A stretch of DNA of 64,000 nucleotides. Source: Eubacteriales bacterium. Lineage in GTDB: Bacteria > Bacillota > Clostridia > Lachnospirales > Lachnospiraceae. Location of the stretch: contig JAUNPS010000005.1 of NCBI GenBank assembly GCA_030536575.1, positions 88,726 to 152,725 on the forward strand, in the 5' to 3' direction. A program made the translations under genes and the position numbers. Positions 16,470 through 49,978 of the stretch are shown piece by piece; position 1 is the first letter of the stretch, and every line of letters begins with the position of its first letter. The notes under the pieces are model-generated. The model had not been told where the DNA came from and did not search any database. It saw nothing but the letters and a program-made list of their open reading frames with translations.

Positions 16470-16490
16470 TCCTCAGCCAAATATTTTTTT
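16455..16490 (+). terminator. Shared bidirectional terminator overlapping two convergent stop codons
   Basis: TTGGCTGAGGA (16455-16465) pairs perfectly with TCCTCAGCCAA (16470-16480) around a GTGA loop and is followed by ATATTTTTTT. The ABC-F stop codon TGA sits in the loop. On the other strand the stem encodes the last residues of the convergent cysteine-cluster gene. Confidence 0.8.
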
Positions 16491-17138
16491 CGCTTCTTCC
16501 AGGCGGGCATAGAACTGGGGGTAGAAATCCTGCTCCGGGTCGTAGGGCTTCTGGTAAAAAGCTTTTAACAGATAGAGATTTGTGTTTTTCGCGAGGGCGT
16601 CTTCCGCCGGGGCGTCGGCGAGCATGGTTTCCAGGTGTTCTAAAAAATAGTGCCAGTCGGTGATGTACTGCTCGTAGGTTTTGAGGTTTGGGGTGTCGAT
16701 CCATTTCTGGACTTTGACCTTGGAGCGGTTTTCTTTTTTGCACTCGTGAACCTGAAGGAAGTAGCGAAAGCTTCCGTTTTCGTAGTAGCGGCCCAGGGGG
16801 AAGAGGCGGCAGATGCCGGGGCGGAAGGGGTGGATGGTGCAGCGGCCTTCGGCGTTCAGGAAGGGGCAGGCTTCGGTGGTTTCGTCCATTTTCAGGTTGG
16901 GGAGGATGAGGCCGTCGACGACGTTGAGTTCCAGGTGGGTGGTTAGGAGGGCGTCGAAGGTGGCGGGGAGGTTTTGGGTGAGGCGGTGGATGTCCAGGGG
17001 GTCCAGGATGATGGAGGCGCCCATGGAGCGGCAGCAGGCGCTGCAGCCCTGGCAGTCGCCGCAGCCGGCCTTTACCAAATCATTTCGAGTATAAAGTTTT
17101 CCATCCGAAATTTCTTCCAAACTCACGTTTCTCTTCAT
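16473..17138 (-). CDS. YkgJ-family cysteine cluster protein
   Basis: 221 residues. Near the N-terminus the pattern CGDCQGCSACCRSMG defines the family, which is thought to hold zinc or an iron-sulfur cluster; later cysteines (ACPFLNAEGRCTIHPFRPGICRLFPLG, two Cys plus one) complete the putative metal site. Start at MKRNVSLEEI, because AAAGGA lies upstream. The biochemical role of the family is unknown. The structured repeat at 17161-17374 ends 22 bases before its start codon. Confidence 0.8.
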   Translation of the reverse strand: MKRNVSLEEISDGKLYTRNDLVKAGCGDCQGCSACCRSMGASIILDPLDIHRLTQNLPATFDALLTTHLELNVVDGLILPNLKMDETTEACPFLNAEGRCTIHPFRPGICRLFPLGRYYENGSFRYFLQVHECKKENRSKVKVQKWIDTPNLKTYEQYITDWHYFLEHLETMLADAPAEDALAKNTNLYLLKAFYQKPYDPEQDFYPQFYARLEEAKKIFG

Positions 17139-17160
17139 ATTGTTTCCTTTATCCTTTACA

Positions 17161-17374
17161 CGGAATCTCGGCAAAGGCCTCGATTCCGATATTGATTGCC
17201 CTCAGGTTTTCGGGAAATGCACCCGAAAACACTTCGCGGGACTGTGACTACTGGGGCTTTTGAGGCCTGCCCTCCGACTAAGGGCCTCGATTCCGAGATG
17301 ATTGCCCTCGCGGGACTGCGGCTACTGGGGCTTTTGAGGCCTGCCTTCCGACTAAGGGCCTCGATTCCGCGCTG
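17161..17374 (-). repeat. Structured intergenic repeat element, copy A (tandem, about 2.3 units)
   Basis: It fills the space between the icd stop codon and the ykgJ-like ribosome binding site. Direct repeats: 17248-17295 and 17322-17369 match over 48 bp with one difference; 'TGATTGCCCTC' occurs at 17193 and 17299. Hairpin 17161-17188 reads, on the minus strand, CGGAATC-GA-GGC-CTTT-GCC-GA-GATTCCG: a 7-bp stem, a tandem GA/GA internal loop and a 3-bp stem. A second hairpin (17206-17230) has a perfect 9-bp stem GTTTTCGGG/CCCGAAAAC. In the other unit this hairpin is missing and CCC-GCGA-GGG, a GNRA-type tetraloop hairpin, stands in its place. The same design is found at 49286-49435. Confidence 0.8.
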
Positions 17375-17381
17375 ACTGCAC

Positions 17382-18590
17382 TTACAGCAGGGCTTCCAGC
17401 TCCTGGCGCACGGCCTTGATGAACGCTTCGCTGTTTAATACCGTGGGGTTCTCGATCGTGGTGATCAGCGCAAGGTCTTTGGTCATTTTCCCGCTCTCGA
17501 TGGTTGCGATCGTGGCTTTTTCCAGCTTGTCCGCGAAATCCATTAGATCCGTCAGGCCATCCAGCTCCCCGCGCTTGCGCAGCGCGCCGCTCCACGCGAA
17601 AATCGTCGCCACCGAATTCGTAGACGTCTCCTCTCCCGCCAGATGCTTATAGTAATGGCGCTGTACCGTCCCATGCGCCGCCTCATACTCAAAGTTTCCA
17701 TCCGGGGAAACCAGGACCGACGTCATCATCGCCAGCGAACCAAACGCCGACGAAACCATATCGCTCATCACATCGCCGTCATAATTCTTGCAGGCCCAGA
17801 TAAATCCGCCCTCCGCCTTCATGATCCGCGCCACGGCGTCGTCAATCAGCGTATAGAAATAGGTGATGCCAGCCTTTTCAAACAGCTCTTTGTACTGCGC
17901 ATCATAAATTTCCTGGAAAATATCCTTAAACGTATGGTCATATTTTTTCGAAATCGTATCCTTGGTGGCAAACCACAGATCCTGCTTCGTATCCAGCGCA
18001 TATTTGAAGCAGCTGTGCGCAAAGCTCTCAATCGAACTCTGTAAGTTATGCATGCCCTGAAGCACGCCAGGCCCCTTAAATTCGTGGATCAGCTCTCTGG
18101 TCTCCGTCCCGTCTTCCGCCGTAAAGACCAGCTCGGCCTTTCCCGCGCAGGGCACCTTCATTTCGCTCGCCTTGTAAACGTCGCCGTAGGCATGTCTCGC
18201 CAGCGTAATCGGCTTTTTCCAGTTCTTCACACAGGGCTCGATGCCTTTCACCACAATGGGCGCGCGGAAAACCGTCCCGTCCATGATCGCACGGATCGTC
18301 CCGTTCGGGCTCTTCCACATTTCTTTCAGATTATATTCCTTTACACGGGCGGCGTTCGGGGTGATCGTGGCGCATTTTACCGCAACCCCGTACTTTTTCG
18401 CCGCATAGGCGCTGTCATAGGTCACCTGGTCGTCCGTCTCGTTCCGGTGCTCCAGCCCTAAGTCATAATATTCGGTCTTCAGGTCAACGAATGGAAGAAG
18501 AAGCTCCTCTTTAATCATTTTCCAGAGGATGCGGGTCATCTCGTCTCCGTCCATCTCAACCAGCGGTGTCTTCATGTTCAGTTTTTCCAT
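17382..18590 (-). CDS. icd: NADP-dependent isocitrate dehydrogenase
   Basis: 402 residues, the length of the dimeric eukaryote-like IDH class. Motifs [28 protein letters not shown] and [19 protein letters not shown] (isocitrate/Mg and cofactor binding) are intact. It converts isocitrate to 2-oxoglutarate, mainly for glutamate synthesis in anaerobes. Start at [18 protein letters not shown] lies 9 bases upstream; the longer frame reads through the repeat-rich leader. It is the third gene after Re-citrate synthase and the GntR regulator. Confidence 0.94.
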
Positions 18591-18610
18591 GTTGGGGTTC
18601 CTCCTCATTC

Positions 18611-18778
18611 TGTGATTGTTACTGTTTACTCGTACCTCGTTCCAGTAACGATTCACAGGCTCATTTTAAGTTTTGCTTCGCAAAAGAGCCTGCTCACTCT
18701 TGAATCATGTTCTTACGTACCTGAGCAGCTGAGTGCTCAGGTACTGGCTGAATAGTAACCTGTGATTCTAAAAGATCG
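18611..18778 (-). repeat. Hairpin-rich repeat between the GntR gene and icd, running into the GntR coding end
   Basis: Three hairpins in 135 bp. 18611-18657: TGTGATTGTTACTG against CAGTAACGATTCACA. 18656-18692: CAGGCTC/GAGCCTG enclosing TTTTGC-TTC-GCAAAA. 18717-18744: a perfect 11-bp stem GTACCTGAGCA/TGCTCAGGTAC. A further CCTGTGA at 18769 can pair with TCACAGG at 18653. Boxes of the form AGTAAC(C/G)(G/A)TTCA recur here and, inverted, at about 8928-8940. The last hairpin is inside the GntR reading frame and encodes its C-terminal tail. Confidence 0.6.
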
Positions 18779-48006: not shown

Positions 48007-49254
48007 TCAGTCTTTGTCTTCCAGGATCGTTTCCCGCAGAAGGGTCAGGGCGCGGACAACCGCGTTTTCGCGGATCTTGGCGCGTCCGCCCTTGAAGTGG
48101 TATTCGTTGACGGTAATCCGGTTATTGTAGCAGCAGGCAATGTAGACCAGGCCCACCGGCTTTTCCGGCGTGCCGCCGTCCGGCCCGGCGATCCCGGTGA
48201 TGGATACACAGACGTCCGTTCCGGTGATAAAGGCGCCGTTTTTCGCCATTTCTTTTGCGGTCTTGTCGCTGACTGCGCCGTAGTCTTTCAGGGTGTTCTT
48301 TTTCACGTCCAGAAGTTTCCGTTTGGCGCGGTTGGAATAGGTCACAAAGCCCTGTTTGTAGACTTCGGAGACGCCGGGGACGTTCGTCAGGCGGGCAGCC
48401 AGCATGCCGCCGGTGCAGGATTCGGCCGTCGTCAGGGTGAGCTGCTTCTCTTTCAGGAGATTGACAATGGTTTCTTCCAGGCTGACGGCTTCGTCGGTGG
48501 TGTAGATGTTGTTCCCGAAGCGGTTTTTCAGCTCTTTTACCATGGGCTTGATCAGCTTTTTGGCTTCTTTTTCGTCGCTGGCCTTTGCGGTCACGCGCAG
48601 GTGGACTTCTCCGGTCTTCGCGTAGGTGGCAATGGTGGGATTCGACTGTTTTTCGATCAGATCCGCGATCTGCGTCTCCACGTAGCTCTCGCCCAGCCCG
48701 CAGATTTTCACCATCGAGGAAGAGATGGTTTCCGGCTGCAATTTGTTCAGGTAGGGGAAGATGTCGTTTTCGAACATCGGAACCAGTTCGTTGGGCGGGC
48801 CAGGGAGGAGGATGACGGATTTCCCGTTCTTTTCCATGATGATTCCCGGCGCGGTGCCGTTCTGGTTATCGATGACGATGGAGCCTTCGGGCACCATGGC
48901 CTGTTTCCAGTTGTTGTCTGTGATGATCTTGAACTGGCTGTTTTTGAAGTATTCTTCGATGCGTTTGCGGGAGTGGGAATCCTCCACCAGGGGCATTTCC
49001 AGGACTTCGGCGGCGATCTCTTTGGTGAGGTCGTCTTTGGTGGGGCCCAGGCCGCCGGAAAGGATGACGACGTCGGAACGGTCCAGGGCGGTCCGAAGGG
49101 TGTCGCTTAGGCGTTCTTCGTTGTCGCCGACCACGGACTGGTGGTACATGGAAAGGCCCAGGATGGCGCATTTCCGGGAAAGATAAGCGGCGTTTGTGTT
49201 TACGATGTTTCCGAGCAGGAGCTCCGTACCTACCGATATTAATTCAACAACCAT
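48007..49254 (-). CDS. cinA: CinA family protein (NMN amidohydrolase / damage-inducible protein A)
   Basis: 415 residues. N-terminal molybdopterin-binding-like domain (VVELISVGTELLLGNIVNTN, VILSGGLGPTKDD) and C-terminal CinA domain (TTAESCTGGMLAARLT, SITGIAGPDGGTPEKPVGLVY, given in short). The C-terminal domain deamidates nicotinamide mononucleotide in NAD salvage. The repeat element B ends 31 bases before its start. Confidence 0.93.
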   Translation of the reverse strand: MVVELISVGTELLLGNIVNTNAAYLSRKCAILGLSMYHQSVVGDNEERLSDTLRTALDRSDVVILSGGLGPTKDDLTKEIAAEVLEMPLVEDSHSRKRIEEYFKNSQFKIITDNNWKQAMVPEGSIVIDNQNGTAPGIIMEKNGKSVILLPGPPNELVPMFENDIFPYLNKLQPETISSSMVKICGLGESYVETQIADLIEKQSNPTIATYAKTGEVHLRVTAKASDEKEAKKLIKPMVKELKNRFGNNIYTTDEAVSLEETIVNLLKEKQLTLTTAESCTGGMLAARLTNVPGVSEVYKQGFVTYSNRAKRKLLDVKKNTLKDYGAVSDKTAKEMAKNGAFITGTDVCVSITGIAGPDGGTPEKPVGLVYIACCYNNRITVNEYHFKGGRAKIRENAVVRALTLLRETILEDKD

Positions 49255-49285
49255 AGTTTAAATTTAACCTCCATTTTTATGCACA

Positions 49286-49435
49286 CAGAATGTCAGCAGT
49301 GGCTTCCATTCTGGCGCTGATTGCCCTCGCATTTTCACATATCCATGTGAAAATCCTTCGCGGGATAACGACTACAATGATCTCTGTATCCTGCTTCCTT
49401 ATACACACAGAATGTCAGCAATGGCTTCCATTCCG
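49286..49435 (-). repeat. Structured intergenic repeat element, copy B
   Basis: It fills the space between pgsA's stop and the cinA leader. Two hairpins of the same design as in copy A: 49286-49313 and 49408-49435, each CAGAATG-TC-AGC-N4-GCT-TC-CATTC(T/C)G on the plus strand; on the minus strand the internal loop is tandem GA/GA and the single difference is a G-U pair. Between them: TGATTGCCCTCGC, a perfect 10-bp hairpin (ATTTTCACAT/ATGTGAAAAT, 49331-49354), then CTTCGCGGGA as in copy A. Confidence 0.8.
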
Positions 49436-49441
49436 CATCCT

Positions 49442-49978
49442 CTAATTCTGCATACTTAAAACCTGTCTGTTCTTCCAAATATAATCGATCATGGAAACCA
49501 CGGTCAGGATCACGGCCGCATAGAAGAACACCGTCTCCAACACGTCAAACACGCCCCCGAAATCCGCAATCAGCAGGATAATCATCACCATCTGGGAAAT
49601 CGTCTTCAGCTTCCCCCACCAGCTCGCCGCGATCACAATCCCATTGTCCGCCGCAACCAGCCGAAAACCGCTGATAATAAACTCCCGGCTGATGATCACA
49701 ATCACCGCCCAGCTCGGCAGCTTCCCGATATCCATCAGGCAGACCAGCGCCGCGCAGACCAGCAGCTTATCCGCTAGCGGGTCCATAAACTTCCCGAAAT
49801 TTGTCACCTGATTATTCTTCCGGGCCAGGTAGCCGTCCAGCGTATCGGTCAGGCTCGCCGCAATAAAGATCCCCAGGGCAATGTACTTGTCCGCGCTTGT
49901 CAGATCACAAAGCATAAAAACTACAAAAAACGGAATTAAAAGGACTCTTAATATTGTAAGCATATTTGGAATATTCAT
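49442..49978 (-). CDS. pgsA: CDP-diacylglycerol-glycerol-3-phosphate 3-phosphatidyltransferase
   Basis: 178 residues with about five membrane segments. The CDP-alcohol phosphotransferase motif DTLDGYLARKNNQVTNFGKF (DG-AR-G-D pattern, given in part) continues into MDPLADK. It makes phosphatidylglycerol phosphate. Overlaps the rimO stop by four bases. Confidence 0.93.
   Translation of the reverse strand: MNIPNMLTILRVLLIPFFVVFMLCDLTSADKYIALGIFIAASLTDTLDGYLARKNNQVTNFGKFMDPLADKLLVCAALVCLMDIGKLPSWAVIVIISREFIISGFRLVAADNGIVIAASWWGKLKTISQMVMIILLIADFGGVFDVLETVFFYAAVILTVVSMIDYIWKNRQVLSMQN

Follow-up and report, generated by a model that had tools for sequence, protein, structure and literature searches.

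The icd-like and ykgJ-like genes of a Lachnospiraceae genome (Eubacteriales bacterium, contig JAUNPS010000005.1, of which a stretch of 64,000 nucleotides, here called the window, was analysed) are separated by a gap of 243 nt (17139-17381; icd ends at 17382 and the ykgJ ATG lies at 17138-17136) that is filled by a repetitive, hairpin-forming element, raising the question of what this element is and why its fold has been kept.

Arrays of one structured unit

A sequence-only reading of this DNA had described the element as one of two copies of a repeat that stops 22 nt 5' of the ykgJ ATG and carries an end hairpin of 7 bp, tandem GA/GA, 3 bp and a 4-base loop, an inner hairpin that keeps its position while its sequence changes, and a CCC-GCGA-GGG motif in a unit without this inner hairpin. 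These features are indeed present (Table 1). On the minus strand, the terminal hairpin P3 of array A reads CGGAATC-GA-GGC-CTTT-GCC-GA-GATTCCG, and that of array B, which lies in the pgsA-cinA gap (49255-49441), has the same shape in other base pairs, as had been claimed (CAGAATG-GA-AGC-CACT-GCT-GA-CATTCTG, 31 nt 5' of the cinA ATG); the inner hairpin is GTTTTCGGG in array A and ATTTTCACAT in array B. Each unit follows the layout GTAG-N5-(G/A)TCCCGCGA, inner hairpin, a CGAGG-like stretch, AATCA and P3, and arrays A and B are repeats of this one structured unit. Within array A, the full end hairpin is confined to the unit adjoining ykgJ, and the two units upstream lack the GATTCCG arm (by eye). 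A 19-nt core occurs twice in the window at up to three mismatches, compared to 0.01 expected occurrences, and both times in array A, so the repeat is not a product of chance.

Table 1. Features of arrays A and B and of the genes around them (positions in the window). R1, covariance model built from copies of this genome; R2, covariance model built from 19 elements of other genomes.
Feature	Position	Strand	Remarks
ykgJ-like gene (PF03692)	16473..17138	minus	3' of array A
Array A	17154..17381	minus	one complete unit adjoining ykgJ and degenerate upstream units; fills the icd-ykgJ gap
Array A, complete unit	17154..17251	minus	homologue of the MITE core; R2 E 3.4e-10; R1 match 17151-17271
Array A, terminal hairpin P3	17161..17188	minus	7 bp, GA/GA, 3 bp, 4-nt loop
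Array A, P2 inner hairpin	17206..17230	minus	9 bp
Array A, shortened unit without inner hairpin	17272..17345	minus	R1 E 8.9e-4; no R2 match at E up to 1
CCC-GCGA-GGG	17305..17314	minus	inside the array A unit without inner hairpin
icd-like gene (PF00180)	17382..18656	minus	5' of array A
cinA (PF02464)	48007..49254	minus	3' of array B
Array B, complete unit	49279..49375	minus	R2 E 2.1e-11; R1 match 49276-49395
Array B, terminal hairpin P3	49286..49313	minus	
Array B, weak upstream match	49398..49476	minus	overlaps the pgsA end; R1 E 0.036; no R2 match
pgsA-like gene (PF01066)	49442..49978	minus	5' of array B

The expectation of further copies in the host was borne out by four more arrays elsewhere in the genome: C11 and C12 with two units each, C16 with two units plus, by eye, a third hairpin resembling P3, and finally C95 with two units of which the second is shortened; a weak match, C14 (E 0.87), was left out of this count. 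R2, trained on foreign elements, recovers both window copies and the four other arrays.

A family of short mobile elements in Lachnospiraceae

The covariance-model search that the earlier reading had proposed extends the family well beyond this host. R2 finds matches in 36 of 397 genomes of the family and in 33 of 334 genera (own genome included, up to ten candidates scored per genome), and for R1 the count is 11 of 250 genomes, again including its own. BLASTN with a 91-base query found no match in 40 relatives. Because the two models recover each other's elements, the window copies are homologous to the foreign ones. Named hosts among the matches listed include Anaerobium acetethylicum, Blautia parvula, B. 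wexlerae, B. luti, Oliverpabstia intestinalis, Hominisplanchenecus faecis and a Fusicatenibacter assembly, besides a Murimonas intestini-titled record flagged UNVERIFIED_CONTAM.

Family members with ends are mostly 142 to 144 bp long (62 of 86 fall in the 140-149 bin and 9 in the 230-239 bin) and consist of a left end, the P2-P3 core and a right end that is an inverted copy of the left one and often forms its own hairpin (by eye). The inverted ends of about 11 to 12 bp are of the type GTAACTRTTCAG or GTTACTGTTCAC, and a left as well as a right end is present within 800 bp (up to one mismatch) in 17 of 23 foreign loci. Target duplications of 8 bp flank them and are seen at the true offset in 85 of 255 end pairs compared to 0-3 at ten other offsets, allowing up to one mismatch in loci picked by the core pattern and not by the ends. 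The elements are multi-copy, with 93 left-end matches in one genome (G128), and GTAACTRTTCAG occurs 221 times in G128 and 109 times in another genome (G120), against 2 and 0 for the reversed pattern. Clustering of 80 elements at 80% identity yields 10 groups. Judged by these sequence features (short, multi-copy, inverted ends, 8-bp duplication), the family is one of miniature inverted-repeat transposable elements (MITEs). Since its end-bearing members combine inverted ends with 8-bp duplications, they would owe their mobility to a transposase provided in trans, most likely a DDE enzyme. Of the earlier suggestion of a mobile REP-like element, mobility is thus upheld for the family, and the REP label gives way to that of a MITE.

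Some loci deserve separate mention. In Anaerobium acetethylicum (L099:38-1059), an antitoxin/toxin-like gene pair (by eye) lies between two family elements, and ATCTACTT precedes the left element and flanks the right one on either side. At L101:3295-3587, two end-bearing elements stand in tandem around an 8-base duplication with one mismatch among its copies, and tandem insertion therefore also happens with ends kept. A 233-bp form with an insert in P3 occurs at L082:3405-3637 and similar loci of Oliverpabstia intestinalis and a Blautia assembly. A pattern search of viral contigs gave no hit and a one-element query of plasmids no match, and another element used as query of phage records gave five matches. 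Two of these five, titled "Bacteriophage sp." (MT839183.1 and MT839053.1), carry a family element along with reading frames that by eye resemble division and housekeeping genes of bacteria, and are probably mislabelled chromosome.

The copies of the window genome carry no definable end pair or duplication. None of the six arrays has a left and right end within 400 bp at up to one mismatch, and at two mismatches both end types appear only at C12 (over 3.1 kb) and C16 (as arms of P3 itself), which looks like chance; a search at fixed spacing is uninformative for these copies, as it also missed the elements of G120, G076, G105 and G154. No autonomous partner was found among searches for IS66, UPF0236 and long end pairs. 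IS66 elements have GTAA ends and make 8-bp duplications, which had made them a candidate. The IS66 domain PF03050 has no match in G128, G076, G105 or G154, and its six matches in G120 and G000 have family ends nearby only at one two-mismatch site, in locus L067. UPF0236 gave no match in 11 genomes, with its controls silent as well, and this negative therefore carries no weight. Long end pairs in G120 and G128, considered as larger transposons, enclose ordinary-looking genes without duplications or a recognised transposase (by eye in 9 of 11 stretches, among the ends listed).

Rfam has no match at curated scores in the window or in 11 loci, and in six loci the elements themselves have none even at E up to 1, in line with the earlier reading, which had recognised no named family. 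The literature searched holds no description of this MITE family, and the occurrences listed for GTAACTGTTCAG in literature text are unrelated by title. Taken together, we consider it likely that the element of the icd-ykgJ gap is a MITE core of this Lachnospiraceae family that has been immobilised and repeated in tandem.

A conserved fold and the place of the arrays in operons

As RNA, the core forms the hairpins P2, which reads CCCGCGAGG...CCGAG and contains an inner stem, and P3, of the form GCGC-stem-U-GUGC; the stem sequences of both differ between subfamilies with pairing kept. Across seven units of the window genome (one each from A, B and C16, two each from C11 and C12; structure set by hand on these same copies), 93.8% of cells are paired compared to 84.1% in shuffles, and 12 pairs show double changes, a number that none of 500 shuffles reached; of the five measures taken, only further pair types were matched, by 1 of 500 shuffles. 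The foreign-built sets are the more independent test because the structure of the own units was set by hand on the copies tested. In 19 foreign cores, RNAalifold gives 24 pairs, 17 of them with double changes, and in an alignment of 107 own and foreign matches (104 distinct rows), which was fitted to the model structure and covers most of the loci that had supplied the 19 training elements, double compensated changes are seen at every one of the 24 modelled pairs, with 96.3% of cells paired. The covariation score of the 104 rows is 0.457 against 0.145 when shuffled, and sliding the partners by 1-3 columns leaves at most 62.3% paired and a covariation of at most 0.090. The claim that the fold has been kept by compensated changes is therefore well founded. 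A shape that stays constant while the letters change is a hint of possible selection on the folded RNA as such.

The pairing could also be kept for a reason at the DNA level, as a cruciform or single-stranded hairpin in transposition, which we regard as possible if on balance unlikely. Such a function would agree with the absence of a clear strand preference among 76 distinct end-bearing elements, which by simple ORF calls occur in both orientations (18 sense and 14 antisense in co-directional gaps, 19 in divergent and 13 in convergent gaps, 3 within an ORF and 9 at a locus edge), and with the variable stems, where G-U and A-C cells (16 vs 8) lean to the sense strand without significance (p = 0.15). 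It is at odds with the base of P3: of the 92 distinct rows that have letters at this position, 71 hold a G-U pair, which would be a mismatch in DNA, and the others mainly have C-G (8) or A-U (6), with 5 unpaired. Since this G-U pair is kept, selection on the sense RNA is favoured; the earlier argument from strand asymmetry to co-transcription accordingly receives partial support, with the P3 base in its favour, no clear preference in orientation and no significant one in the variable stems.

In the window genome, all six arrays are sense to the next gene, with P3 19-39 nt 5' of the chosen start codon (19, 22, 25, 28 and 31 nt in five arrays, 39 nt in C95). These start codons are our choice, as in three cases (ykgJ, the HD-domain gene, the mutase) the longest ORF starts within the array; the start of ykgJ is supported by its homologue in a congener (G001). 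Five arrays lie in co-directional gaps and C12 in a divergent gap. Set against the family, the share of co-directional, sense copies is 5/6 vs 18/64 (p = 0.013), and p becomes 0.001 when C12 is included, 0.075 when divergent gaps are treated as sense and 0.13 within co-directional gaps alone; this contrast is weak, rests on six arrays and varies with the definition. The copies have no recognisable pair of ends and lie in tandem and in sense direction, within intercistronic gaps or a 5' leader and a short distance from the next gene. They are therefore most likely transcribed with the operon and would give the downstream gene a leading series of stem-loops that might, if it acts at all, affect mRNA processing, stability or translation start.

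In our reading, the arrays are immobilised MITE cores that travel within leader or intercistronic RNA and have perhaps been co-opted. An encompassing scenario, in which the RNA core of the MITE is functional and has stayed under selection in the sense transcript across many subfamily changes, and the window lineage lost the ends, duplicated the core in tandem and came to use it as a leader module for six genes, is tentative and rather doubtful. Fairly unlikely, in our view, is a co-option of the arrays of this genome as cis-acting regulatory or processing RNA of which the unit next to the ribosome site is kept. It draws on the gene-adjoining unit being the fullest in A, B, C16 and C95 (R1 matches of 121, 120, 119 and 114 bases vs 74, 79, 105 and 78 upstream; R2 concurs), but the training set of R1 consisted of the full units from A, B, C11, C12 and C16, and C11 and C12 each have two complete units, of which R2 slightly favours the upstream one (33.1 vs 32.1 and 27.7 vs 26.3). 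It also draws on a GA/GA apex in five of six arrays (by eye) and on the position of C12 between a T-box leader (L005:1616-1835; E 9.1e-14, 64.7 bits, below the Rfam cut-off of 93) and a class I tRNA synthetase gene (ileS by eye), but the downstream genes (ykgJ-like, cinA, phosphoglycerate mutase, uxuA, tRNA synthetase, HD-domain) share no common theme.

The relatives also speak against such a co-option. In the congener G001, icd is followed after a 12-nt gap by the ykgJ homologue (65% identity) with no element between them, so the operon does not need it; a regulatory role of array A in the icd-ykgJ operon of the window is hypothetical. The absence in G001 fits a gain in the window lineage and a loss in G001 equally, and in the other four of five relatives with an icd locus a ykgJ homologue is absent from the examined stretch. 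The own-copy model has no match in G001 and only one at E 0.53 in G002. A mobile element that is hit in 33 of 334 sampled genera of one family and whose inner hairpins change in sequence but not in shape forms a natural covariation set for studying what makes a transposon retain its RNA fold, and the window genome adds the comparison of an end-less core inside an operon with a congener's operon that lacks it.

Comparison with known repeats

It is very improbable that the arrays are REP-type palindromes moved by a Y1 (RAYT) transposase, for which GTAG 5' of P2 could serve as the tag: GTAG is found there in nine own units (by a search pattern that itself contained it) but is missing in C95 and several foreign subfamilies, and the family has inverted ends and 8-bp duplications, whereas REPs are not known to make target duplications. 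The likeness to GTAG-tagged REPs (PMC3733652) lies in the intergenic palindromes and, for the window copies, in a GTAG close to a hairpin.

BOX elements of Streptococcus (boxA-boxB(n)-boxC) are, in the available text of PMC3049150, small mobile intergenic repeats with a tandem interior module that would form stem-loops if transcribed, and one of them forms a composite RNA with T-box riboswitches. The arrays resemble them in the tandem interior module, the stem-loops and the intergenic location, with C12 likewise behind a T-box, but reside in another host and are likened to BOX by description and not by BOX sequence; the terms "covar" and "compensatory" do not occur in that available text. ERIC, NEMIS/Correia and other bacterial MITEs are, in the accessible parts of PMC2229807 and PMC10969869, short and non-autonomous with inverted ends and target duplications, and their transcripts form stable stem-loops able to act on mRNA. 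The family described here shares the short element, the inverted ends and the target duplications, but its ends start with GT and finish with AC whereas most MITEs have 5'-TA-3' (PMC2229807, available part), and it differs from ERIC and NEMIS/Correia in a core fold that is kept by compensation while the stem sequences turn over.
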